Of a stretch of 64,000 nucleotides of DNA, positions 20,623 through 63,912 are shown piece after piece. The translations under genes were made by a program, and so were the position numbers. Position 1 is the first letter of the stretch. Each line of letters opens with the position of its first letter. Below the pieces are notes generated by a model. That model did no database searches. It was not told the origin of the DNA and saw only the letters and a program-made list of their open reading frames with translations. Origin of the DNA: Cladocopium goreaui (Eukaryota; Sar; Dinophyceae; Suessiales; Symbiodiniaceae); contig CAMXCT020000273.1 of assembly GCA_947184155.2 (NCBI GenBank), positions 1 through 64,000 on the forward strand. The letters run 5' to 3'.

Positions 20623-23600
20623 TCAGCGCTGAAAAACGGCTGGCCTCAAGAACTCCAAGAACTCTTCGAAGTTCAATTCAGTGTTCATATAGACATGATC
20701 ATCAGAATCCTCCGGCACCAGGAAATACTTCACACACTCCCGCTGCCATCCATGCCGGGGCATGAGGCCCAGCTCATAGACTGAAAGAAAAGCATCGTTG
20801 GCAGTGAGCACACCGATGGAACCAGCGTCACCGGAGAGTCTTCGGAAAATCTCATAGATCTGCAAAATGTCATCCCTGCATTCTTCGAAAAGGGTAGGTG
20901 ACACCTTCATCTCCACCAAGATGTCAACTTCCCGCTCTCTTAGTTGGCGATTGGTGTGCTCCCTGCAAGTCATGATGGCTCTTTCAAAGGAATCAAAATC
21001 AACCGATACTCCGGGTTCGTTCTCAAAGCCCTGGACTTGTAAAGCTTCGACCATCAAATGTTGCTCCATTCGAAGGCATCTGGCGATCTCCAAGCATTTG
21101 AAGACAGAAACGGTTCCAGCGCCCTCCCGATCGAAATTGCAAAAGTAACGCATGATCTTGGTACTCTGGAGCTCTGTGAGGCGCTGGCGAACCTTGGGTA
21201 CCAAAATCCCAACAAAGGTCAGGAAATTGAAGGAAGCTTCTGAAAATGGCTCCGCATTGGCACCAGTATCGAAGTCTTCACTGTCACTTCCTTCACTTCC
21301 GGAAGCTTGTTCTGATCCTGAAGCCTTGCTACTTCTCCGGCTGGAGTTCTCCGAACCGAGACCCGGCTGGGGCTTGGTAGAGGCTCTTGCTTCAGCCTCC
21401 TTGGTCTCCTTGGCGTCTCAACTAAAATGTTTAAAACAGCAGAATAATGCAGAATATATTTTTATATTATATTATATTTTTATTGTACAGACCAAGACAG
21501 ACAAGGCTAATAAGGCTATGCACGACACACTGCCCGGCTGACCCCACACTGCAATCATGCTCGCCTGTTCACAACAAGTGTTACACCGCAAAGATCAGAA
21601 AAGGTCAGAAAAGGATGCAATGATGCAATGTCAAGTGTTCGTCTAATTTTCTCCTTGCCTGCGCTGATGCACGCCAAAGTATCCGAAGCAACTCCAGAGG
21701 TTTGCGTTGTTAAGCGTTTTTTGGATCCTGGCAGAGCTAGAGTCAGACTAAGGCATGGCTGTTGATGCCATTTGGGGCACAATGTCAAGTGAAGCTTTCT
21801 CAGATTTCGCACGCCCATAGGGCACCAAACTTTCCCTCACCACTTGCCCATCACGAGACCCTGGCCTGCGGATGCTGGTGATATTTCCAGGGGCTATCAA
21901 TTGCATTGGAAATTAAGTGGAAGAAGACGCTAAAAAGATTCAAAATGTGTGTATCCATATTATATGTTTGATTATTTAATATTTGATATATTTGCATATA
22001 TTTGCATATTGTGATATCGGTCTCGTCGTCTCTAAGGAAGGCTTGAACACTGGTAGGATTTGAAACTTGCTATAATTTGATGCTTCACATGCATGGGTCC
22101 TCTCTTTTTCCTGACGACGCCTAGCTTGACCCGGGGTTGATTCTGCATGCGGCTCCGCTGCTGATTCAAGACCTGAAGCAAGTGACTGAACGGTTGAACC
22201 ATGTTGAATCCATGAAGACCCATGAAGCGTCCAGGAGTCCATCAAGATCCATCAAGGTCTGCCTGCCTCCTGCAAGTTCATTGATGTTGTGCCAACGTGT
22301 ATGCTTTGCATTTGGGAGGCAGTCACCACATTGCGACAAACCTGGATAATCTCCTCGGAGTTGGTTCGCTGTCAGCTCACGGGGACGACTAAAACTCCGA
22401 CTTTGGTAGTGCAGCACCTTCACTCTTCCTTAAGCATCCTTGAGCGTCATCTTGGTTGGCCAAGCATCTCGCTTCTCAATAGCATTTGATCCAGATAAGC
22501 CAAGCTCCTTGGTTTCGATTAATAATAATTAGTCATGAAAATCGCAACATATTGTTGCGTCCGCTCTCTCATAGACTAGAGTCTGCCTAACAATGCAATG
22601 CGTAACTGCAGGTAGGCTGCTCTGAGTGCAGGGACCACTTCGTCCCACTCCAAAAAGCCGGATAGGTCAGCATCGTATTGAAAGAATGCACGCTCAAGCG
22701 CCTCCCTTTCCTTTTGAGGAAGCCGTTCATACCTCCTCGGCGTGCGACGCATAAAACAACGTTCTGAGATGACTTAAAATGATGTCTTCGTCTCTTCGTC
22801 CTTTCTGGCGAGTTGTCTCTGTTCCAGCGCTTTCTGATACAGGCCAGGTTAATTGGCATTCAAGACTGGTTGTTGTCTGCTAGCAAATCCAGCTCAGATC
22901 CAGCTCAGATCCAGCTCAGATCCAACTTTGTCCAAGACAGTGCTTCAATCACTGCATGGTGAGGTTGATGACAGAATTCCACGACTCTGACTGTGTGATT
23001 TGCTGAAAAGGCACTTTTGGGCATAGTTCTCGTTCCGCTGCCTCAACACACTTTCACGGACGCTGCGCAAACGCTTGTGCACAATTTGTTTCATCCTTTG
23101 CTTCATATCGGCCACGGCGAGGAGGTCCACCTTGGAAATGCTGCCATGTGCAATCTGCTGCCAGGCGAGCAATCGATTTCATAAACAACACACTGATTAC
23201 ACATCTGCCACATCTGCCACATCTGCGTCCTTAGGCTTCAGCTGAATCGGAGGATAAACGGGATGCCATGGATGCGATGGATGCCCGGGTCAAATCTGTG
23301 CCGTTTTCAACTGGCAGATCGACAGTATTTGACGCCACCAGACCTTGAAAGAATGCAGAAACTTGATGAGGTCTGAAAATGTCAGAGACCAAGCTCTTGC
23401 TGTTGATGTGCATGCGTTTGTGCGTGTGCGCGTGTGAATTGACACAAAGGCACGCATATGTTTGAAAGTGTACGGGTATGTACTAGTAACTTAGTATGTG
23501 GAAACTATAGCAGCAGGTTGCAAATGAGGACTTCTACTGGGTCTCACTATAGAATCCCATTCATGCATCCAACAGCTGCATCATCTGCATCCCTTGGATG

Positions 23601-28053: not shown

Positions 28054-31000
28054 TATCCTCTCAAGTTGCTTCGAACCCCCTTGGGGACCATTTTAGAACC
28101 CAAATATGGGTTCTAAAATGGAATCTACAAGGGGGGTCTTAGAACCTAAAATTCTTGGCCGCTATTCCGTTTTTGGGTTCTAAAATGGGTTCTGAAATGG
28201 TATCTTCCACCCTTTAAAAAATCATTAAAACATATTAAAAAATTCCTTGTTGAAACCATCGCATTTCAGGAAAAAACGATGAGGAAATCTGCGCCCCAAA
28301 AAAATAGATCAACATGAGGCGAATCAAAAAAAAACCTGCAAAGAGCACTCCATGATACTCCACAACATTTTTCAATGGGTGACGGCCCGGCCACAGATGG
28401 TCGTATCATTTACTACCTATGGAGCCAGGTTTTTGCCCGCGCTCTTTGCTTCCTTTCTTGCCAAACCATTAAAGTACACCCAAACCCAAATGCTTTCAGA
28501 ATGTCCCCTAAGTCACCCCTTTTCAAACGAATTTAGTTGTGGACTCGTTCCATTTCCCGTGCGACTGTTTGTTTAATTTTATGCAGACATGTCCAACCAG
28601 ATAAATTTTCAATAAAACAGCAAACTCCTACATGCAGTGTTTTCAAAACAATAGTGTTTTTTGCGTCAAAGGAGAAAAACAAGGAACAAATCATCACATG
28701 CGGAATCAGCAAGCAGGTGTGTGTCGAACTACAGCTGTCCAGCTGTCACTTAAAAAATGGTAAGTTTGCCTACCTTCATCAGGACGCCACTGATTGGACA
28801 TTTGTTCTTTTGGGATATTTGGGGGGGCTGGGCAGCTATGACAGAGAGATGTCACCCTAGACAATGCACCTTGAGGATTTATCTTTGGGAAGGGTTCTGG
28901 AATGGTTTCCTGCTTGGCCAAACGTGTGAAATACCGGCTACTGCAAGGGGAAACCATTTTAGAACATTTGCATGCTTAGATAACTTTCATTTGTTCATTT
29001 GTTGCACAGGCATTCGTCTACTTGTAGAAGAACAAAAGATGGCAGAAACAGTTTTAGCTGACTTGATTATCACTGAAATTCATTAGCATTGGGTTGTACC
29101 TGCCTACCTACCCCTGGAGGTATTTATCTTTGGGAAGGGTTCTGGAATGGTTTCCTGCTTGGCCAAACGTGTGAAATACCAGCTACTGCAAGGGGAAACC
29201 ATTTTAGAACTGTTGTATGCTTAGGTAACTTTCATTTGTTCATTTGTTGCACAGGCATTCGTCTACTTGTAGAAGAACAAAAGATGGCAGAAACAGTTTT
29301 AGCTGACTTGATTATCACTGAAATTCATTAGCATTGGGTTGTACCTGCCTACCTACCCCTGGGGGTATTTATCTTTGGGAAGGGTTCTGGAATGGTTTCC
29401 TGCTTGGCCAAACGTGTGAAATACCAGCTACTGCAAGGGGAAACCATTTTAGAACATTTGCATGCTTACGTAACTGTCATTTGTTCATTTGTTGCACAGG
29501 CATTCGTCTACTTGTAGAAGAACAAAAGATGGCAGAAACAGTTTTAGCTGACTTGATTGTCACTGAAATTCATTAGCATTGGGTTGTACCTGCCTACCTA
29601 CCCCTGGAGGTATTTATGTTTGGGAAGGGTTCTGGAATGGTTTCCTGCTTGGCCAAGCGTGTGAAATACCAGCTACTGCAAGGGGAAACCATTTTAGAAC
29701 TGTTGTATGCTTAGGTAACTTTCATTTGTTCATTTGTTGCACAGGCATTCGTCTACTTGTAGAAGAATAAAAGATGGCAGAAACAGTTTTAGCTGACTTG
29801 ATTATCACTGAAATTCATTAGCATTGGGTTGTACCTGCCTACCTACCCCTGGAGGTATTTATGTTTGGGAAGGGTTCTGGAATGGTTTCCTGCTTGGCCA
29901 AACGTGTGAAATACCAGCTACTGCAAGGGGAAACCATTTTAGAACATTTGCATGCTTAGGTAACTTTCATTTGTTCATTTGTTGCACAGGCACTGGTCTA
30001 CTTGTAGAAGAACAGAAGATGGCAGAAACAGTTTTTAGCTGATTTGATTATCACTGAAATTAATTGGCATTGGGTTGTACCTGCCTACCTACCCCTGGAG
30101 GTATTTATCTTTGGGAAGGGTTCTGGAATGGTTTCCTGCTTGGCCAAACGTGTGAAATACCAGCTACTGCAAGGGGAAACCATTTTAGAACTGTTGTATG
30201 CTTAGGTAACTTTCATTTGTTCATTTGTTGCACAGGCACTGGTCTACTTGTAGAAGAACAGAAGGTGACAGAGACAGTTTTTAGCTGACTTGATTATCAC
30301 TGAAATTCATTGGCATTGGGTTGTACCTGCCTACATACCCCTGGAGGTATTTATCTTTGGGAAGGGTTCTGGAATGGTTTCCTGCTTGGCCAAACGTGTG
30401 AAATACCAGCTACTGCAAGGGGAAACCATTTTAGAACTGTTGTATGCTTAGATAGCTTAGATAGCTTAGATAGCTTAGATATGTTCATTTGTTGCACAGG
30501 CATTCGTCTACTTGTAGAAGAACAAAAGATGACAGGCACAGTTTTAGCTGACTTGATTTTCCCTGAAATTCGTTTGTGTGTGTCACTACAGCTGTTTCCA
30601 GTGGGGAATTTTTCTACCTACCAATTTGCCGCTCACTTCACCTATTGGCCCTTTCGTTCAGAGATGTGGAGCTAGACAATATTTGGCCCACGCCTTTTCG
30701 GAATTAAATCAAAAGAACAGCCCAAATGCATGCAAATCTCTAGCAAATGCACGTACATTTTCGACGCGGGATTTTGCAGCCTCTTGTGACACAACATGCA
30801 AAAGCCACTTTATGTGTGCCTCAGGTGACGGCAAAAGAAGCAAACATGCAAAAAATAAACTCAAAAAACCATGCATTGTTGGGGTGAATGCAAAGGTAAA
30901 GGTACAGCTAACCACTTCAAAACTGAGCTGAACCCACAAGTTCCCCCAATCAGAAATGTTCTTACCATGTACTGAGATCAAGAAACAAACTGAACTGTGA

Positions 31001-35850: not shown

Positions 35851-37327
35851 GCTTGAAAGGTTTCAGGATATCAATGCAAATAGCTCAAGCCCACAAAGAG
35901 TCTGACGTCTCCATTGGATAAAGACGACCATAGCTCACCTGAATCAAGATTCTGGATTTGTCAGTCTGAAATCCCCTATCTTTTTTTTGGCTTAATTAAT
36001 CATCAGTATCCCTATCAAAATGGCCATATGGATCCATATGGATCCATATGGAGGATACACAATGGATACACCGATATACCCCCATTTTCAGACGCACCCC
36101 TGGACCCATGTCTTCAAGGTAAGCCCCACACCTCCAGTTGTGCCGTAGGTCCTCCCATCTTGGGATCAGGACCACCCGCGCCGGCAGAAAGACGGACCTA
36201 GGAGTTGAACAATGGCCATTGGGGGCCCTGTGAGGGGGGGGGCCATAGGGGATTCTTGCCAGTCAGAGAGATCCTACAGGCTTACTTCAACCTGAGTATG
36301 GAATGTATGGAATGATTGATGATGTTGCACACACTTATATCAGAACTCCTATATAGGTAGAGTACATACGTCACAGCATCCATGGCAACATTTCAGGCCG
36401 CAGCTCGATAGCGCTTCACCGGAGTGGAAGGTCGCATTCCCTGCCGGCTGGGATTGCAACTACGATTACACTGAGCAACGCTGAATGAACACGGTAATGT
36501 ACAGGGGGGGAACAATGCCAGTCATAGTGTCAAGATGTTGGCACCAAGAATCACCAGAAATAGAAGCCGCTCAATTCTGATCCTGCATTCGCAGCCAGGT
36601 ACGAGAAAAAGGATAAAAAAAAATGCAGTCTGCAAGTGCAGAACCGCATACCTCCGCATGCATCTAGGGGAACAGCAATATCATGGTACACCATGGTATA
36701 GCTGCATCTGACAGAGATGCACTTCGTGCATCATCTGCGTGTTTCTGTAGTGCTGCCAGCACGGCATTGCCGAGTAAACTGCAAAATGGTGATAAAAATC
36801 AGGGAACAAAGATGTCAAACCAACTCAAGTCTGACCTGAACAAAACGCTCCTGTCTTCTTGTGGTGTGCCACCAATCTATTCAAACCGAAGTATAAATTA
36901 CTGTGAGGCCGTTTTGACCTTGAAATTGGCAGCGCTGTGGGATTCATCGGATGCGAGATCAGCGCACGTATTTTGGCACATCATGAGCTGGGGATTGGTA
37001 CAATCTGGCTTTCCTTGGTGGAATTGCAAACGCAAATAATAGGAAGCACTCGACAGAAAGCCTTTTGGAACACAGCGTTACCTGATCCCTGATCCACTGA
37101 AAAGAACAAAGTGCGTCCAAGTGGCGGATATGGTGTGCAAGTCCTGAGCAGTGTTCATCCGTTTCAGGGCTACACTCACCTGGGCACAGAAATGAAGGAT
37201 GTGTATATACCTTTGTTGAGTCAGCTGCATCAACGTGAAAATAACCACGAAGTTGGTCTCAAAAAAAATAAAATTTGGTTTGTGATCTTTCCCCATTGAA
37301 GATATTGAAGTCAATACATCAAATATC

Positions 37328-37999
37328 TTGCCAAGCCCGTGTTTGGCTTAAGACTGGTGGGGGGGGGTCCGGAGGGGGGGGGGGGGTGCACGGCAAGGTG
37401 CTAAAATTTCAAAAATAGGTGCTCAAATTTAAGGAAATAGGTCTTTTTTTGAAGAAACCGGGTCGGGATCCAGTCGGGACCCAGTCGGGACCCAGTCGGG
37501 ACCCAATCGGGCACCAATTTTTGCATTTTTGAGCACCGCTTTTGGCCAGTCGGGATCCAGTCGGGATCCAGTCGGGATCCAGTCAGGCACCAATTTTCGA
37601 ATTTTTGGCACCACGTTTGGACCTGTCGGGAAGCAGCCAAAATCATCGAAAAACATGCAAAAACACTGCAAAAATGCTATTTTTTATGAATTTGGCTGCC
37701 TCCCGACATTGGTGCCCGACTGGATCCCGACTGGATCCCGACTGGATCCCGACTGGATCCCGACTGGATCCCGACTAGCCAAAAGCGGTGCCCAAAAATG
37801 CAAAAATTGGTGCCCGACTGGGTCCCGACGGGATCCTGACTGGATCCATAGATTGGCAAGAACCCACTCCCGCACCTATTTTTCCCTTCCCAGACCCACC
37901 CTTGCCCCTATTTTCCTTTTCCGCGCACCAGCCGTGCACCAATACCCCCCCCCTCCTGCACCAAAACGGTAAAAGCAGTCTTAAGCCAAAGTTCTACAA
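37328..37999. mobile_element. 672-bp foldback element with 8-bp target duplication
   Basis: The insertion is flanked by CAAATATC on both sides (37320-37327 and 38000-38007), and block B has this 8-mer once (42060-42067), so the empty site is known. Ends are inverted: both begin TTG and share TTTGGCTTAAGACTG. The arms are inverted copies of about 300 bp each: GGTGCACGGC, AAAAATAGGTGC, iterons GGATCCAGTCGG / CCGACTGGATCC, GCACCAATTTTTGCATTTTT and GTCGGGARGCAGCCAAA. A centre of about 45 bp lies near 37640-37690. No coding capacity is present, so it would be non-autonomous. An 8-bp duplication is usual for hAT transposons, but the ends match no family I know. Confidence 0.85.
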
Positions 38000-38136
38000 C
38001 AAATATCATCAAAGTTTATCAAAATCATTCAACATCTCAATTTTGCGTATTACATGACATGGTGTTCCCCATTTTTGGTCAGCTCCAAGACTAGTAGATG
38101 CACATGATGGAAATGTCACCCTGTGCCGTCACAATG

Positions 38137-38640
38137 TCATTCTCGGGCCTTTCTGCCCGATTCGCGGTATTTCTTTGAGACTCTCCTCCTGGTCTCCTCG
38201 CAGATCCAAAGATTTCCACACGTTGGGTGAAGAATTGAAAAAGCATGAAAAAGCCTATTGCGCAACAGCGAAGCACCAGTGACTGCTGTGCTCCTCAATC
38301 GTTTCCATTGGAAAAACGTGCTGCAAGAACCTTGCGTTTGTGTCCCGGAGCTATGAACATTCATGTGTAAAATATGTGCAAACAGTCCGGCTCCGACTGG
38401 CAAAACTGCTCCAAGCTGCTCTGTGTAGTCTATATGGCCAGTCTGATCGCTGTCGCACCTAGCATTGCCAGCGGCAATTCCAGGAGCATGGATCGATATG
38501 GATCGTTTGGCTGTTGAATCGTGGCTAGCTTCTAGCAGGTCATGAAAGGTTGAGGTCCTCCTGATCTGAAGAGTTCGCAGTGGCAGAGCTCAGTGCCAGC
38601 AAGGCGCATCTTGAATAGTGTTGTCATTGTGTCCTAGGAA
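38137..38640 (-). pseudogene. Duplicate of the second EF-hand region of the channel gene (block A)
   Basis: Identical reading to 42207-42700: ARCDSDQTGHIDYTEQL, with the loop D-D-T-I-D-E at 38419-38454, then the FLQHVFP box near 38330. It lacks the pore and EF-hand 1 exons because the duplication stops at 38952. Whether it is spliced into a transcript as an extra EF-hand, or is a dead copy or an assembly duplicate, cannot be told. Confidence 0.5.
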
Positions 38641-38789: not shown

Positions 38790-38838
38790 GCACTGGGTGC
38801 ACTGGGTGCACTGGGTGCACTGGGTGCACTGACTGGGT
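38790..38838. repeat. 9-bp VNTR CTGGGTGCA
   Basis: Five tandem copies here against two in block B (42921-42946), plus a shared ACTGACTGGG end. Confidence 0.9.
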
Positions 38839-38957
38839 GCAGGTTGGATATCCATTGGATATCCATTGGTGCTTCAAAGCGCTTCAAGTGCTTCATGACT
38901 GTCATGACTTGCTGCTATGTGCTCATTTCTGAGCTTCTGCTGACCCCTAGACCGGCT

Positions 38958-41370: not shown

Positions 41371-43050
41371 GCAGTCTGCAAGTGCAGAACCGCATACCTC
41401 CGCATGCATCTAGGGGAACAGCAATATCATGGTACACCATGGTATAGCTGCATCTGACAGAGATGCACTTCGTGCATCATCTGCGTGTTTCTGTAGTGCT
41501 GCCAGCACGGCATTGCCGAGTAAACTGCAAAATGGTGATAAAAATCAGGGAACAAAGATGTCAAACCAACTCAAGTCTGACCTGAACAAAACGCTCCTGT
41601 CTTCTTGTGGTGTGCCACCAATCTATTCAAACCGAAGTATAAATTACTGTGAGGCCGTTTTGACCTTGAAATTGGCAGCGCTGTGGGATTCATCGGATGC
41701 GAGATCAGCGCACGTATTTTGGCACATCATGAGCTGTGGATTGGTACAATCTGGCTTCCTTGGTGGAATTGCAAACGCAAATAATAGGAAGCACTCGACA
41801 GAAAGCCTTTTGGAACACAGCGTTACCTGATCCCTGATCCACTGAAAAGAACAAAGTGCGTCCAAGTGGCGGATATGGTGTGCAAGTCCTGAGCAGTGTT
41901 CATCCGTTTCAGGGCTACACTCACCTGGGCACAGAAATGAAGGATGTGTATATACCTTTGTTGAGTCAGCTGCATCAACGTGAAACTAACCACGAAATTG
42001 GTCTCAAAAAAAAAATGGTTTGTGATCTTTCCCCATTGAAGATATTGAAGTCAATACATCAAATATCATCAAAGTTTATCAAAATCATTCAACATCTCAA
42101 TTTTGCGTATTACATGACATGGTGTTCCCCATTTTTGGTCAGCTCCAAGACTAGTAAATGGACATGATGGAAATGTCACCCTGTGCATCCCTGTGCCGTC
42201 ACAATGTCATTCTCGGGCCTTTCTGCCCGATTCGCGGTATTTCTTTGAGACTCTCCTCCTGGTCTCCTCGCAGATCCAAAGATTTCCACACGTTGGGTGA
42301 AGAATTGAAAAAGCATGAAAAAGCCTATTGCGCAACAGCGAAGCACCAGTGACTGCTGTGCTCCTCAATCGTTTCCATTGGAAAAACGTGCTGCAAGAAC
42401 CTTGCGTTTGTGTCCCGGAGCTATGAACATTCATGTGCAAAATATGTGCAAACAGTCCGGCTCCGACTGGCAAAACTGCTCCAAGCTGCTCTGTGTAGTC
42501 TATATGGCCAGTCTGATCGCTGTCGCACCTAGCATTGCCAGCGGCAATTCCAGGAGCATGGATCGATATGGATCGTTTGGCTGTTGAATCGTGGCTAGCT
42601 TCTAGCAGGTCATGAAAGGTTGAGGTCCTCCTGATCTGAAGAGTTCGCAGTGGCAGAGCTCAGTGCCAGCAAGGCGCATCTTGAATAGTGTTGTCATTGT
42701 GTCCTCGGAGGCAAAAAACCACTCGATGTTTGGCTTGGTGGATTTGGTACGACTACAAACATCATAGATATCATAGCTACTGGCTGTCCAGTGCGCAGCA
42801 AATCTGTGGAAGCCATGGGAGCCGTATGGGACACTGTTGAGCAATGTTGGGAGATGGGGGTAGCCAGGGTTGGCTCCAAGCTTCAGCACGAAGTCCAATC
42901 CGCATTTCCGTAAACAACCTGGGTGCACTGGGTGCACTGACTGGGTGCAGGTTGGATATCCATTGGTGCTTCAAAGCGCTTCAAGTGCTTCATGACTTGC
43001 TGCATCTTGCTGCTATGTGCTCATTTCTGAGCTTCTGCTGACCCCTAGAC
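41371..43050. repeat. Segmental duplication, block B (empty site)
   Basis: Counterpart of block A (36625-38952) without the 672-bp element. It abuts the 3' side of the EF-hand 1 exon of the channel gene, so it is probably the original position. Identity with block A is very high, only a handful of substitutions by eye. Confidence 0.9.
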
Positions 43051-46000
43051 TTGTCGACACAGCTCAAGCACTGAAGCGCTGGTGAGTCCACCCTAAGAAT
43101 TCCGAAAAATCAAGCAGTCCATCTCCATCATCATCAACATATTCCAGTAATGATCGCACCTCGGGATATCCCACAAGATCCACAAGTGCCGAATGCCAAC
43201 TTCGTAGCTGAGAATAAACAAATGTGATCAAACATTATAATATAATCTGACATGTTGACACAGCATCTGATGCTAAATCATGCAAAGTCGCACCCGTTCA
43301 CAGCCCAAAGGAAAAAGCCATGCTGCCAAGTGCACGTCCTCCACCGCATAGCCCCATTTCAGCAATGCTTTTTGAGCACGTGTCACACTCAATAATTCAT
43401 CACGGCCCTGCCAGCATATCGTGAACTCGTGTCCGATAATACCCACCTTGGTTTCACAGATTCTATGATACTCTTCCAAATTCTGCTGCTTGCATCACTG
43501 TGGGGGCCTGTCTGATGAGAAACCTCCTTGCAGGACAGCTGCTGGCATTGCAAGGAACAGCACGCTGGCAATGGTCAGAATGGACCTCCGGTTTCCGTGA
43601 TGCTGCCAGGTAGCATGTTACATCTTTGCAACTGCTTTGTAAAAAGATGAAAAAAAAGAACCCGTTCAGTTCAGACCTTCAATTGTGAACCTGTCAAGAG
43701 TCAAGACATTATAGACATTCGAAACATTTCGAAACTCGTGCATCTCAGATGCTTGGAGAAGATTCAACGAGATCTGCAACGGTATTCACACATATTCACA
43801 CTAGTCAGCTCCATCAGTGGATTGATGTCACATCAAGGGGCGCAACAATGTAGCCACCAAGCGATTTTGGCACCACATCTCCGTAACCTTAGTCGACAGG
43901 GTGTTGGCATTCATAGTCATTGTATGTCATTGTCTAATTAAGTTAGTTACAGTGGCATGGGCCAGTGCATTCTGTTTGGGACGAAGACATGGGAGAAAAA
44001 ACAAGTTCATGTATAATTAATGTATAGAAGATGGGTAGGTGATGTTGCACTTTCCCTGGCTTTACCTCTTTGCTGCGATGTTCTCATGCTTCATCTGTCG
44101 GTTCCATCTTGCGCGAGTATTTTTTACGAATGGTGGGGTTCCACCAGAAGGTCAGACATTCCATTTCCTACAGCCTACGGCCAACGCGCACGCCCGACTA
44201 AGTGGGTAACCCACTGTCGTCATGGTGACCGCGCAAAGCCAGATTGAGTACTGAATACCTTGGCTACACGAGAAATTGCGCAACGAGTGGCTCTCAACCA
44301 CATTCCTCTGCAAAATCAATCTATCTTGACATGCAACCTAGCTACTGGGAATGTTGGTCCTGCAGTGTCTGTGGGATCAATGGCTGATGATTTCAACAGC
44401 TGACCATAGCTGGCAAGAGCTGACAGAATCCATGTCCTGGACTCCAATAGGTAAAGAGCAGTGGAAGAAAGCACCACCATGAGAGCCATCCTTCAGCAGT
44501 GACAAATTGGCACAAAATATCACCAAATGGCAAAAGAAATATCAATGCTATGCTTCAGCGAACTGTCATCCGATTTTCTGTGGACATGAAGACAGCTGAG
44601 TTCAGCCATGGCACGTGTACATTAGCACCGGCAAAGCATCAAGCCTCAGACTCAGAAACAAAAAATAAAAACATTGAAGCTTGGCACAACAAGACAAAGG
44701 GGAAACATGAATCACGAAATGAAAGGAAACAGCGACCGTTGCAAAAGATTGCATCCAAAGATCGATTTGCGGAAGGCATCCTTGGATTTCACTCTTGCCC
44801 AGCCCTTCAAATGCATGCAAGGCTGTAGACAATACCGACCCTTGAGCTCTAGGTCCAGAAAGTAGGGTGAAATGATCTCGGATTCCAACATCTAGCCAAT
44901 TCCTGTCCAAGGATCGATCAAGAGCCGGATGGTTTCAAAATAGCGCAGCAACTTGAGAAAGCGAACAGTTGGCAGAACAAAAAGCAGAATCGCCTTAGCT
45001 TTTCGGTAGACTCTCAAGCCATGCCAGCCATTTGACGATAGTTCAGCCAATGGTGAACTGGTGGTTTGGAATTGTGGGGATACCCCATAGTGGTAGTCAC
45101 CTTTTCTGGGGGAATCCTGGGAAAACAAAACCACTCGAACCACCAGTGAGCCATTGTCTGAAGAACCATACTTCAATCTCTGAAAAATCTAAGTGGTTTT
45201 CATATCCCACTCTCTATCCCAGCAATATCCAGCAATTATATCCCATTCCATCGCCAGAAAAATGATAAATTCTCTTCCACATGATGGAAACAGCAGCCAC
45301 CAAGATGCTTGAATCGTGGCCCGTGCCTGAGATGTTGCTCGATTGATGTATTTATTGGTGGTTGCATGTGTGTTCCAAAAAAAACACTACAACACAACAA
45401 GACAAGACAATACATACAATACAACATAATGACTGATCAGATCAGTCATTAACTATATTAAGATATCATCAAAGATCATAAAATTGCGTATAGGTGACTA
45501 AGAGCTATGTTTTTTCAATATCCACCATATAGCATGAACATACTTACTGTATCTTACTGTAACCCAAGCCATCCTACATGTCCATGGGCCCTTTTGGTCC
45601 AGCAGCTGGCTCTGTTGGCTCCTCCATGACCAAGCCGATGCTAACCTGAGAAGCTCATGGCTGTGGCTCAAAACGATGAAATCTACGAATAATGGTTTAT
45701 AACTGAGGTATATTAGTGGATGATACAAATGATTATTGGGTGATGATGGATGATATGATATGATATGATATGATATGATATGATATGAAACGATATGATA
45801 TGGTATGGTATGATATGATATGGTATGACATGGATCATGATTATTCGTGGTACTCTAATGCATGGATAATGGATGATTGCAATACAACAGTAAATAATGA
45901 ATAATGGATGATAACGGATGCATGGGTCATTGTCATTGATATTAAAATTAGTGGATGATATGGACCACCCAAAACTGTTATAAATTATTATATATACAAA

Positions 46001-47287
46001 TTATCAACACCCCAGACGGTTGAATACTGACGATTGTCAAGTGAGTGCGTTGATTGCTGTGCAAAAAGTTGCCCATACCATCCCATACCCACATAAATAT
46101 GAAAAGCCCATGGTTTCGGCACGGAAAAACCATACATAGTACGTAGTTATAAATTAAATGGTGGATGTTCCAAGCCGATATGTATAATATCTATCTCAAA
46201 TTGCTGGTGGATAACAGTCTGATAAGTGGACAGGAAACGCGCAGGAGCAGCCCCATGGCTGATGCCACATCTGCCCAGTTGAAGGCATCCTTGATGTATT
46301 CCTTCTTGGATGGTGCAGAGAAGATCCGGCACAAGAACCTCGACTGAGATGGCTAAAGCTTTCGAATGGATCGGGATCCAAAGGATGCCTAGAAGATCCT
46401 AGAAGCGTGCATCACTTCACATCCAAGTAGCACAAGTTTCAGCAAAATACTGGTAATACTGGTAACTTGGTAGTACTACAGCTCATGCTTCCAGACTGCA
46501 ACTGAGGAGCTCAAGAAAAAAGATGAGATCGAATGTTGTCTCCAAAAAGGCGAACGTTTGTCCATAGGTGATTGGCTCCTGTTCTCCAAAATGAGGGCAT
46601 GTTTTTTTTCAACTGATGTTGGAACTGTGTCAGCACTCAGGCTCCTGGCTAAGCTGCATATTTGTCACGAAAACACTCAGGATCACAATCACCTTGGCGC
46701 AAGCGAGATTTGACAGACATGCTGTAGATTGGGGAGATGATTGCGATGTCAAGCCCAAACCCGTCACCTCTACAAACAAATCAGGTTTAATTACTCCAGC
46801 TGGGGGTGAAATATTGTTTTGACTGACAACGTCTCGAAGCAAAACCACTTGCGGTACAGTAATGTCATGCACTTGCGTGACTAATCGTGACCACACTTCC
46901 CAATGACAAGCTTCCTTCATCGTCTGTGAAATCCACCAAGCAGCTCCTGAGAGTGAGCTTCGCTAGTACCCCCCAAGACGTGTTCAAAGGGAATGGTTTG
47001 GTGCGTCTGAAAATGGAGTATCATGGGGAAACGAATCTGAATCTACCCCATCATTCTTAAGGGTACCCGATTTTCAACTATTTTCAGACAAAGCCACTTA
47101 ACAGGTTGACTGCAGCCCAAGCATCTGCTCGAGTGTGGATCCTCCAAGACTTCCCAAACTCGCTCGCAACGACCCCGACCTCGCTCGCTTGTTTTCGCCC
47201 GTCCCCCATGGCACCAGTTATGGCACCCGCCAGCGAAAGCCTTGGTTCTTGCAGCTGGGCGGCGCAGATTTGAAGTTGTGGGATGTC
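42300..47287 (-). CDS. Voltage-gated K+ channel with C-terminal EF-hands (GYGD filter)
   Basis: Thirteen exons with consistent phases encode a six-transmembrane Kv-type channel. They are 47095-47287 (N-terminal part to S1), 46650-46721 (S1), 46511-46583 (S2), 46239-46338 (S2-S3), 45578-45645 (S3), 44897-45012 (S4), 44804-44840 (S4-S5), 44405-44490 (S5), 44211-44258 (pore helix), 43842-43887 (filter), 43543-43585 (S6), 43336-43446 (post-S6) and about 43075-43207 (EF-hand 1). EF-hand 2 follows at 42489-42524 and a box FLQHVFP near 42400. The product should conduct K+ out of a membrane compartment, gated by voltage and, by inference, Ca2+. Of 12 donors read, seven are GC and five GT; the 46650 donor is the least certain. 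The TGA at 43064 is probably intronic, because EF-hand 2 follows. The N-terminus and final stop were not found. Confidence 0.75.
42345..42660 (-). CDS. EF-hand 2 and following exons of the channel at 42-47 kb
   Basis: It reads ARCDSDQTGHIDYTEQLG, with loop DSDQTGHIDYTE at 42489-42524. The acceptor AG|G before TGC GAC matches that of the paralogue at 60792. Then AG|G TTC TTG at 42400 starts FLQHVFPMETIEEHSSHW, parallel to FLRHIFPHESQEDCDGFL in the paralogue. The region is duplicated in block A. Confidence 0.6.
43075..43207 (-). CDS. EF-hand 1 exon of the channel at 42-47 kb
   Basis: It reads SLLEYVDDDGDGLLDFSEFL, a canonical loop DDDGDGLLDFSE at 43100-43135 (positions 1, 3, 5 Asp, 6 Gly, 12 Glu). 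It starts in phase 0 at 43207, 128 nt after the post-S6 exon. The frame meets TGA at 43064. A GC donor within the CACCA|GC box near 43074 would avoid it, as expected if EF-hand 2 belongs to the same protein. Confidence 0.8.
43336..44258 (-). CDS. Pore, S6 and post-S6 exons of the channel at 42-47 kb
   Basis: The pore helix YSIWLCAVTMTTV is followed by GYGDVVPKSLGGYIV and S6 SILTIASVLFLAMP, then VGIIGHEFTICW, all typical of Kv channels. An intron (43888-44210) interrupts the first Gly codon of GYGD. The S6 exon (43 nt) and post-S6 exon (111 nt) have the same lengths and phases as in the paralogue at 63.4-63.7 kb. Donors at 43842 (GC|GC) and 43543 (CCA|GC) are GC. The post-S6 stretch (SVTRAQKALLKWGYAVED) is helical. 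Confidence 0.85.
43888..44210 (-). mobile_element. Introner-like intron in the selectivity-filter codon
   Basis: The 323-nt intron splits Gly1 of GYGD. Its body (43888-44202) begins and ends with the inverted 8-mer CTTAGTCG / CGACTAAG, extended imperfectly to GTTGGC inside both ends. It is flanked by GTTACCCA (44203-44210) and GTTACGGA (exon side, 43880-43887), six of eight bases equal. The acceptor AG comes from the inverted repeat and the donor GT from the flanking duplication. The paralogue at 63.8-63.9 kb has one 94-nt exon here (48+46 nt), so the intron is absent there. Confidence 0.7.
44804..47287 (-). CDS. Voltage-sensor exons (S1 to S4-S5 linker) of the channel at 42-47 kb
   Basis: S2 reads FLETTFDLIFFLEFLCRIF across a GC donor (GA|GC), matching the Kv pattern LEFLVRF, followed by APSKKEYIKDAFNWADVASA with the conserved S3 Asp. 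S3 ends ...GLLLRVSIGLVMEEP; a Pro/Gly-rich outer loop follows. S4 is LPTVRFLKLLRYFETIRLL, with positive residues every third position (R, K, R), fewer than in Shaker. The linker ends STALHAFEG before S5 (MALMVVLSSTALYLLES). Exon ends give phases that join without exception from 46583 down to 44405. Confidence 0.75.
45735..45835. repeat. (GATAT)n microsatellite
   Basis: TGATATGATATG run in the intron between the S2-S3 and S3 exons of the channel gene. Confidence 0.9.
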
Positions 47288-47599
47288 CTGGGATGATGCA
47301 AACGTCAAAACCTGTCAAAAATTGTCAAAACATACAAAAAACTGAAACATCGTGAAGAGTTGATGTAAATTGACTGACACCTAGAATGGCCCTCTCGATG
47401 CATACACATGTATAATATTAAATTTATATAATAATATATAATATTGATCAATACTGCACAATACCAAACTGTTTGCAAGAAGGCAAGGCATCCCGTACAT
47501 CAGGATGTGGAATTCTATGGTGTCTGCAAAGAAAGCTTTGCATATCTTTGCATGTATCCAAGCGCCGCGAAGCCACACCGGGGTCGATAAGCTGCGAGG

Positions 47600-50500
47600 C
47601 CAGTCTTAGGTCAAGACTGCGAACCTCAGAGGACGACAGTGCAGTGGCTGTCTAAGTCTACTGAGTCTACTGAACTCCTCCCTTGCGCAAGAGAAACCAA
47701 GAGAACCCATTTGTCGTCACTTCCCGAGGGTTCACATGTTCACATGTCATGTCTACAATGTCATTTGGGCGGTGTTCAAAACCCTCTGACGATTCCTGTA
47801 TACTCCCATTCGCTTCCGCGAAAGGTTCCGCACATCTTCCGCGGTGTGGGTTTTGGCTTCCACGGGTGCATCTGTGTTGACTTTCTCTTCCGCGGAGCTT
47901 CCGCGACGGTATTGTTCACTTTAAAGTTCATCACTTTGTTCTTTACATGTCCATTTGAACTGGGGCAGGAATATCGCACACGGTTGGTATAATCATTGTG
48001 TAGCGGTGTGCCAACTTGGAGAGCAGCAGCACTGCAGCAGCTGATTATCACAGTATATCACAGTGGTTTTACGATATGGATATGAAATGATATGAACAAC
48101 GAAAACTCAAGCCCTACACCTGGTGGACCAAAATCATTTTATATCATATATGCTCTTCCGCGGGTCTTCCGCGAAGCGACTGGTAAACACAGGTTCCGCG
48201 AGACTTTTCGCGGGGCTTCCGCGACTGCAGTGCCAGCTTCTGCGAAGGTATTGGAGTTGACGAGTTTAACTAAACTCCTCTTGGGGGTTTTGATCGCTGC
48301 TCATTTAATGTCATTAAATTACAATTATAATTATGTAATATTATGTACATATATTACAATGTACATGCATTTTGTTTTTAATGGTTTTTCCTACCTCACT
48401 CTGTGCTTCTCAGAGGAGCCTTTCCAGCTTTTCGATTTGGCCGCAAGGGCACAACCTGAGGAGGGCGATTATGTCCTCTCCAGCGAGTACCCACCAATCT
48501 GAGCTACATTGTCATGAATTTCCATGGCTCACCAGGCTGCCAAATGGATTTTCGGCACCCTTCTTGGGATCGGGCGGAAGATTCATCGTTCATTTCCCTT
48601 GGCTCGGCCTCAAAAAGTCAGTTGCTGGCTTGGACTTTTGAGTGGCACAGTTGCCGGCTAAGATTTTTTGAGCAGTGTCCACACATGTCCACACCTAGAG
48701 ACCCCGTATGTTCCCCCCACATCCTGCTGCTTACAAGAAGCCTTTTCCATGACGTTGAAGGGAACCATGTGCTGACGCAACGACGATGAACTAGGCACAT
48801 GCGGTAGCTCGTCCTGTCCTGGGCTCGTCTGGGCAGCTGGTTGATTCAACCGGATGTATATTGTGCAACTCTGTAAATTGATCTGTAAATTGTGCAACTC
48901 TGATGATGCAGCTCATCTGCAGTTCTCTACACATCTCACGTATTCTCACTACGCCTACCGCCAAAATGGACGGGATCCGCCGCAGGTCCTCTTCCACTGA
49001 GAGAGGAGACTTGCCGCTTCAGGGTGGGCACGGGCTGCACTTTGTCTTTGCCCGAAAGTTCTGCCAAACAAGCATCCACCTGCACACTGCAAATCATACA
49101 TCAATCTCTCCTCATCTCTCTGATGCTTCACATTGTATTTGTATGTATTTGTGCTATTGGGATCTATATATTATATAGCGGGATCCATTGCGATCTGTTG
49201 GGATCTGTTGGGATCTATTGTGATTCATCATGATTCATCTGTAGATACTAAGCCATCCATTTTCACGTCTTTGCATGTCCAGTTTGACAACACTGTTTGG
49301 CTCCCTTAGGCTCCCCGTGGCATCCACAGCACCATAAAGGCCTTCTCCAAAATCCGATCGAGGCGCAATTCAATCGCCACCATCTCACTGGGGATGGAGC
49401 CTGAGCTGAACTCAGTCAACCGGTGAGGGAGAGTGGGTGCATGGTGCTGCAAGTTTCCCACCTGGAGGCGGAATCATCGGTGGTGCCTCGAAAGCTCTCC
49501 TAAGCGCGACACAAAGTGAGATGAAGTGAGAATGCTTTTTGGTGTTTTTTTGTCCGCACTTATGCCCCATGAATCTGGGATTCAACTGATATACATTCCA
49601 TCAGTGGCCGCCGGCATCACTCAGCACACATAGCTCGGGCAATTCACTTTCTGCTGAGCGGTCTCTTTGCATCTGTAAAATTCTGTAAATGCAAGCAGAT
49701 GCAAGCAGGGGACGACTTCGGAGACGACCGAAATTGTGGGTTTGCCTTCTTCTCAGGGGCACCCACATCATCGACAGATTGTACCGATTGTACCCGCCTT
49801 AGCTCTGGCATGGATGTCCAATGCATAACAAAAAAAAAAACAAAAGCCGAAGTTCTTAAAACTTAAAAGTGCTGAAAGCTGCAGCCATAGCCTGCTAAGA
49901 GCCCAGCATTGCCATGTTTGATCGCCCAAACGTGACGAAATGAATGCCCTAGCGTACACCTATGCCTGTGTTTGCACCTATACAAGGGCCTCCAACTAAA
50001 GGAGTTCAAAGATGCGGTTCATACGCTCATGGGCTAAGGATGGCAAAGCTGACCCATGAATATCACCGTGAATCTGTGCAGGGAGTGTCCTTCAGCATAT
50101 CGAGCCCGATGGCTACCCAAAGAACTAAGAAGCTGCTGACATACAAGCCATCCAACCTGGCCTGCACAGCTACCATCATATCCATCACAATCATACACAG
50201 TGACCAGCAACAATTCGTATGGTTTTACATGGTTTTACAATCAAATGATCACTTCAAGAAGTGGTTGAAGATGGCGTCGCCTGTGCTGGCTTCTCCTCAT
50301 CAGAAGTCTGTCCTCCATGACGTTACCAGTGGTTTGCCAAGCAGTCACAGCCGACATCAGCTGACACTCCTCCCACTGACAGCTCTTCAACTGCGCCGGC
50401 AAAGATCTCCTTGATAACCATGAGCCTGAGAGATGAATCGCCAGCGACATCACTGGGACATTATAGCAAACATATCCGAATCCTGGTGCTCAGAATACCT

Positions 50501-62575: not shown

Positions 62576-63912
62576 CATCCATACATACATACATACATAC
62601 ATAGATACATACATACATACATTCATACATTACATACACATATATATATACAAACATACATATAAGAACATAAAACCACGTGTATACATATATATATATA
62701 TATGTACTTTAATATATATACATGAATACACATACATATACAGGCACAGGCACAAATGGATACATACATGATCATACATGTGTATTGATATGTACATATA
62801 ACGACATATTTACATATCTAATCTGTCTGTCTGTCTATCTATCTATCTGTCTGTCTATCTATCTGTCTGTCTATCTACCTAATCTATCCATCCCTCTGTC
62901 TAATCTAATCTCATCTAATCTAAATCTATCCTATCCTATCTACCTATCTATCTGTCTATCTATCTATCTATCTATCTAACCTTTCTTGCGCGTAAATATT
63001 TATGTATGCATGTATGTATGTATTTTTATATGCATGTATATATGCATGCATGTATGTATGTATGACTGAATGCATATTCATTCATATTGTGTACTATATA
63101 TACATATATATATATGTGTGTGTGGTGTGTGTATATATATATATATAGTTTATATTAATATAGATATACTTGTATACAGATATTATGGAGCAAAACAAAC
63201 CGGTGGCAGAATGAAGGGACTGAAGTAATGGATTGCGCGTATTGCTGGAATGAAGCACCTGCTTTTGTTAGCACAGGAGACACTGGGAGGGAGAACACAA
63301 ACTGGCTTAGGCCAGGCCGGTGGGAATAATTAAATGCAGCATACAACCAGTTGAAATGACGACACAAAGGACCCAACAAGTTCGGCTCAGATACCTGGAC
63401 ATTGACCGCCCAAACCCAATTAATGTTTTAGGCCAGCTGACATCTTTGGCTCCGATGCCCAACTTCAGCAAGCATTTCCGTAGCCGAGCAATTAAAATGA
63501 CATAGTTCCTCCTCTCCCATGAGTTGGAAAACTCTTGGCCAAGAATGCCAACCTCACCCGCTAGCGGATACAACGGCAAGGCTGTAGGCCGCCCTCAAAA
63601 AGAAAATCTACATCCCGAGAAATTGAGAAGTCCAAAAATCTTCGACGACACCAGCAAGCTTCCACTTCAGCCAAGCAACTGGCATGGCCAGAAATAAGGT
63701 GCTGATCAAAGTGAGAACTCCCCTCAGGTTAAAAGGCAAATTAACTGCATGTTTTTTTGCCCTGCTTGCTACTGAAGCGCTGCATCTGTAGCGCCCAACC
63801 ACGTGCAACCGAAGCAACACGATGATGAAGCCCCATGCGGTCTTCGGGGTGTAATCCCCAAACCCCACACTTGTCATCGTCACAACGGCCAACCAATACG
63901 AATGCGCTAAAC
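60199..63912 (-). CDS. Voltage-gated K+ channel paralogue with EF-hands (GFGD filter), partial
   Basis: Exons: 63819-63912 (pore, LAHSYWLAVVTMTSVGFGDY), 63680-63722 (S6, GVLTLISTLFLAMP, GT donor), 63442-63552 (VGILGQEFSNSWERRN, 37 codons), about 61211-61309 (EF-hand 1, loop DVDGDGIISFFE at 61222-61257), about 60740-60792 (EF-hand 2, loop DDDRNAQIDYIE at 60753-60788) and 60433 downwards (FLRHIFPHESQEDCDGFL, open to about 60210). The voltage sensor lies beyond the window end. The post-S6 to EF-hand 1 interval is 2.1 kb of microsatellites (128 nt in the paralogue). One tiny exon seems missing before EF-hand 1, since phases 0 and 1 do not meet. GFG in place of GYG is found in some K+-selective channels. 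Confidence 0.75.
61930..63160. repeat. Microsatellite field in a channel intron
   Basis: Runs of TA, CATA, TTACA, ACGTT, TCTA/TCTG and ATGT units fill most of the intron between the post-S6 exon (63442) and EF-hand 1 (61309). No open frame here is credible. Confidence 0.9.

Follow-up and report, generated by a model that had tools for sequence, protein, structure and literature searches.

An introner-like intron inside the selectivity-filter codons of a Cladocopium goreaui K+ channel gene, and the splitting of these codons at related loci

The window analysed here is a stretch of 64,000 nt from Cladocopium goreaui, a dinoflagellate alga and kin of coral symbionts; it corresponds to C273:1-64000 of the 1.166-Gb genome (6,202 contigs) that was searched. 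Its minus strand carries a K+ channel gene whose selectivity filter is interrupted by an intron, together with the unsplit pore exon of a paralogue. The features, read from the letters, are as follows.

43064..49477, minus strand: K+ channel gene of the voltage-gated type, its C terminus bearing an EF hand; it has about 20 exons on our own count
44211..44258, minus strand: 48-nt exon GTATTCAG...GACAGTGG, from the pore helix to base 1 of the first Gly codon
43888..44210, minus strand: 323-nt GT-AG intron in phase 1, splitting the codon of the first Gly in GYGD
44203..44210, minus strand: left target-like repeat GTTACCCA, containing the donor GT, with GGTTAC exact across the junction
44195..44202, minus strand: left inverted repeat CTTAGTCG
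43888..43895, minus strand: right inverted repeat CGACTAAG, ending in the acceptor AG
43880..43887, minus strand: right target-like repeat GTTACGGA, coding (G)GT TAC GGA
43842..43887, minus strand: 46-nt exon GTTACGGAG..., the remainder of the filter (GYGDVVPKSLGGYIVA), followed by a GC donor
63819..63912, minus strand: unsplit 94-nt pore exon of the paralogue, VTMTSVGFGD

The channel gene ends in a stop codon at 43066-43064, and its exons, once joined by hand, were recognized by Pfam as Ion_trans (3.5e-12) and Ion_trans_2 (7.7e-11), with the EF hand scoring below the Pfam cut-off. A 271-aa open reading frame (ORF), P0037, aligned with the window in 16 exact blocks between 49477 and 44938, four of them of just 6 to 7 residues and with 20 residues lying outside the blocks; the longest contig that carries P0037 is 2,065 nt, and as a contig of about 2 kb is unable to span 4.5 kb of genomic DNA, we infer that P0037 is RNA-derived and that the channel gene is transcribed. 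Introns of the gene were placed with GT, GC or GA as permitted donors and AG as the acceptor, and all three donors were in use at those P0037 junctions for which this rule left a single solution; use of the three in dinoflagellates has been reviewed (PMC11453091). By our own reading, P0037 and the genome frame differ by about two bases near 45630 (within 45654-44938), which takes P0037 out of frame before S4 and which we read as alternative splicing or a variant.

Removal of 44210-43888 as a GT-AG intron restores frame, phase and residues exactly, the spliced reading being GTG G|GT TAC GGA GAT, or V G Y G D, and the S6 and EF-hand exons downstream read as conserved sequence. Both observations stand against the reading that this segment is no intron and that the gene is simply broken there, which we regard as very improbable even though P0037 departs from the channel frame ahead of S4 and no protein or ORF joining both sides of the filter was present among the best 120 of 142 matches and the 12 matches of two protein searches. 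The anatomy given in the initial annotation is borne out by the letters in each of its parts: a 323-nt intron in the first Gly codon of GYGD between exons of 48 and 46 nt, a perfect 8-bp inverted repeat (CTTAGTCG/CGACTAAG) at the ends of the intron body, flanking duplication-like repeats (GTTACCCA/GTTACGGA) that share GGTTAC and differ at two of eight bases, a donor GT that lies in the duplication and an acceptor AG that lies in the inverted repeat.

These features place the intron close to known introners. Its terminal inverted repeat, at 8 bp, is longer than the minimum of 6 nt applied here for introners, the target-like repeats, matching at 6/8 positions with GGTTAC exact, pass as a target-site duplication, and the intron falls within the pattern by which introner elements have been defined in two dinoflagellate studies (inverted repeats of 8 to 20 nt and direct repeats of 3 to 5 nt close to the intron ends, the limit being 30 bases in PMC10666404; Farhat et al. 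2021, PMC7789003, and the later Prorocentrum search of PMC10666404). In the account of Symbiodinium microadriaticum introners given by Gozashti et al. (2022, PMC9860276), target duplications are 4 bp long, the terminal repeats carry the acceptor and the donor comes from the target; the filter intron likewise combines a direct repeat of the target with terminal inverted repeats, takes its acceptor from the element and its donor from the duplicated target. Unlike those introners, which form families with 4-bp duplications, it was found once, and its duplication amounts to 6 exact bases, or 8 imperfect ones by geometry. With the Amoebophrya elements, for which PMC7789003 reports no family-specific inverted repeats, it shares a terminal inverted repeat of the 8- to 20-nt class and a short direct repeat across the boundaries, whereas those elements are mainly repeated non-canonical introns and the filter intron is GT-AG and was found once. 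Pattern-defined introner elements are known from Prorocentrum and the Suessiales (PMC10666404, PMC10522408), and PMC10522408 assigns them to 3.2-6.3% of Symbiodiniaceae genes; the pattern itself is silent on copy number.

The weight of the repeats depends on how often chance would supply them. Among the 15 presumed introns of the channel gene, 11 of which were placed with P0037, the filter intron has the longest inverted repeat (8, against 3 to 6 in the other 14) and the longest direct repeat (6, against 0 to 5), and none of the other 14 shows its anatomy. A reservation is that the boundaries of a few of them are ambiguous or misplaced and that one of the presumed introns, 47578-47180, holds 14 unmapped residues of P0037. 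Within the window, CTTAGTCG occurs solely as the inverted-repeat pair of this intron, and 17 of 100 shuffles held the 8-mer at least twice. The transposon geometry was found at splice sites in 2 of 368,445 GT..AG pairs (80-1000 nt, both strands of the window, filter intron included); as the criteria were fixed with the filter intron already in view, this figure is strong, not conclusive. Permitting one mismatch per arm added two further pairs, 20939-21752 and 20939-22393. When splice sites were ignored, the combination was common and unremarkable for 64 kb: the window held 135 cases in which an 8-bp inverted repeat came together with a target-like repeat (6 of 8) of equal score, many of them in simple repeats, against a mean of 17.2 in 10 locally shuffled windows; the top-scoring other candidates that were inspected sit in simple or tandem repeats. 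An inverted repeat longer than 8 bp was ruled out, since 0.11-0.71 of the controls (shuffles and random window segments) did equally well or better, and the intron strand showed no excess folding as a DNA hairpin (z 0.54; 69 of 100 shuffles equal or better). The inverted-repeat half of the published pattern (at least 8 nt, no more than 30 nt from both ends), taken alone with the direct-repeat half left out, was present in 294 of 19,872 random 323-nt window segments and in 158 of the 13,821 with complex ends. Since 1.1-1.5% of random segments carry this half, counts of introner elements that rest on the pattern alone may include many chance cases.

Copies of the intron were sought across the genome. 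The 323-nt body, compared with all 1.17 Gb, returned one candidate, itself, in a search that skips common words and had no positive control, so that a family whose copies have diverged, or are of other lengths, may still exist. At a spacing of 284-314 nt, the ends CTTAGTCG...CGACTAAG turned up as a pair once genome-wide, at the filter intron, compared with 9 occurrences of a reversed control pattern; a family with CTTAGTCG ends was accordingly rejected at 284-314 nt. The single 8-mer is not enriched either, being rarer than its reversal (5,669 versus 39,168). The initial annotation had expected other introns to share these ends and had held that their absence would refute an introner; as far as the searches reach, the absence is what was found, and similar copies in other introns, the mark of a multi-copy introner, did not appear. 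Separately, CTTAGTCG occurs about 14 times per Mb on contig C1 (more than 7.1 Mb), compared with 5 per Mb genome-wide. This contig looks GC-rich by eye, its channel ORFs (L001-L008, L018, L021 and L026) are unbroken at 316-392 aa, and it probably entered the assembly from a bacterium.

Because the intron works like known introners and fits their pattern while failing the copy-number test as far as that was run, we call it an introner-like single-copy relic, and put the chances that it is an old or low-copy insertion with terminal inverted repeats and a target-site duplication at about even. On this account the channel gene would have received, within GGTTACGG, a short DNA element, non-autonomous and bounded by 8-bp terminal inverted repeats, whose insertion duplicated some 6 to 8 bp of target. 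The left target copy would have supplied the GT donor and the right repeat of the element the AG acceptor, and because of this origin of the two sites splicing would restore the codon exactly. The element, of which no sister copy was found, would be old or never abundant. The exact fit of inverted repeats, direct repeats and splice sites speaks for such an insertion, as does the existence of an unsplit paralogue; against it, two of the eight target bases differ and the inverted repeat does not extend past 8 bp.

The unsplit paralogue lies in the same window. The initial annotation had set its single 94-nt pore exon against the 48 + 46 nt of the channel gene, a contrast that is confirmed, and had described the two exon structures as the same; the boundaries before the pore exon, after it and at AMP|V do match, by eye and without a transcript of the paralogue. 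The two genes have diverged, with no DNA match between them, and in our tree the paralogue, whose branch is long and uncertainly placed, is not the closest relative of the channel gene, for which reason its unsplit exon says little about gain versus loss. Elsewhere in the window, ORFs match between 36668-38589 and 41414-42659, and 38811-38952 and 42919-43050 share a stretch of about 140 nt that is 88% alike, all in the same orientation; from these recurrences, a segment of a few kb seems to have been duplicated next to the channel gene, in a stretch that also holds a run of N and a 127-nt tandem repeat. A further tandem repeat, of about seven 245-nt copies with 94% matches, occupies 28869-30571.

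A search of the genome with the pore peptide gave 45 matches (E up to 10), of which 25 channel loci were compared at the filter; three loci on C1, L031 (TSVGYGD, unsplit), L032, L036, L055 (in which no pore was found) and a few of the weakest were left aside. With splice sites outside the 43064..49477 gene read from sequence alone, the codons of the filter or those beside them are split in 9 of the 25 loci, and VGYGD itself in 8. The first Gly codon is split after base 1, at the same nucleotide and in the same phase, in the channel gene, in L061 (contig C113) and in L038 (contig C3957); it is split after base 2 in L047, the second Gly codon is split after base 1 in L048, and the split precedes Val in L042, L043 and L049. 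In 15 loci the filter is unsplit, L044 and L045 among them having an exon start 15-18 nt upstream, and L052 was counted in neither class. The view of the initial annotation that the intron had been caught in a functionally untouchable codon does not survive this comparison. Literature searches on introns that split GYG showed no title on the subject among those listed. Two-pore K+ channel genes may have a conserved intron in GYG. At one other locus, L058 (contig C1477), the filter reads VGTCD in place of VGYGD.

Across the ten introns at or near the filter (those of the nine split loci and of L044), an inverted repeat of 8 belongs to the filter intron alone; L049 and L017 have 7 at other offsets, and the remaining seven have 4-5. 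The presence of an intron without such repeats at the same nucleotide in L061 fits an older intron. The main rival to the introner-like reading is accordingly an intron inherited in this Gly codon from before the paralogues split, lost or replaced in some of them, with the repeats arising by chance. This history would also cover the distant L038 and the failure of the genome searches to reveal a family of copies. Gene phylogeny bears on it in both directions. In a tree of 28 rows and 119 columns, in which eight rows had their junction residues assigned manually, the channel gene grouped with P0018 (99/95) and less firmly with P0121 (Effrenium voratum) and P0005, while L061 grouped with P0010, P0012 and P0127, its C113 locus (L013, L061) agreeing with P0010, a C. 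goreaui protein, at 99% across 116 columns. The free tree did not join the channel gene and L061, so a same-site intron shared by sister genes is not supported; holding the channel gene, P0018, P0121, L061 and P0010 together was rejected (p 0.0009), with the proviso that this constraint also breaks two supported sets, and a wider eight-row grouping of both clades was not rejected (AU p 0.062). Across 12 rows, the state of the filter intron must have changed at least 6 times. P0018 and P0121, the likely orthologues, have gene models that start at a Met immediately preceding the filter, which hints weakly at an unsplit exon there. From these results, the same-site introns may be either parallel gains or one old intron. 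Taken with the rarity of the repeats at splice sites, the separation of the two genes and the hint from the orthologue models make inheritance somewhat unlikely in our estimation. Of the DNA-transposon-like introner put forward in the initial annotation, what stands is an anatomy like that published for Symbiodinium and rare among GT..AG pairs; the single-copy body and end pair, and the repeat-free intron at the same site in L061, tell against it.

The ninth of the split loci, L017, offers a clearer candidate for intron gain.

L017:1391-1540 (C2057:258288-258437): region of a 119-nt insert at the filter

L017 reads as a single open frame running from S1 up to the filter, and the frame is open again from the filter onward. 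The insert is flanked by an exact 10-nt repeat, CAGGACTGGG, and its removal restores MTGLGYGD; it has no terminal inverted repeat and, compared with the genome, matched itself alone. We consider the intron at 43888..44210 a less clean candidate for such a gain than this insert. The insert also lends substance to another origin for that intron, namely, gain without a transposon, for example, through the repair of a break with short direct repeats left behind, the inverted repeat being fortuitous: the filter intron has the direct repeat GGTTAC, yet its body was found once, and the L017 insert shows the same combination. We hold this route to be improbable for the filter intron, as it leaves unexplained an 8-bp inverted repeat that abuts both target copies, and the introner-like insertion is preferred.

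The repeated splitting of the filter is a more interesting point than the single intron. Six of the ten paralogues taken as closest (Wlow, Wup, L061 and L042-L048) are split, at four positions, where the rest of the region would lead one to expect 1.5-1.75 introns per such stretch; the corresponding Poisson figure of 0.004-0.009 is based on exon blocks counted roughly by eye after the pattern had been seen, in genes that are not independent. Direct repeats in the ten filter-region introns measure 10 nt in L017, 6 in the channel gene and 2-4 in the remaining eight. The exon that follows opens with the same two bases as the donor in 8 of the 10, as expected if donors derive from duplicated target, and in part expected anyway because boundaries were picked by the G-donor and AG|G rule. 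We tentatively suggest, with somewhat less than even confidence, that new introns have landed repeatedly in the filter codons of this dinoflagellate K+ channel family: VGYGD would have been split independently at four or more nucleotides, with GT or GC donors taken from the filter codons, and at one more locus an insert with a 10-nt target-like repeat breaks an otherwise open channel frame.

Taken by itself, the filter intron illustrates a known mechanism and is nothing out of the ordinary. If the filter codons have been hit repeatedly, parallel intron gains in this gene family would make up a natural series at a short, strongly constrained motif and, if so, would allow one to ask directly whether dinoflagellate introns choose their sites by target sequence and how exact splicing must be at the birth of an intron.
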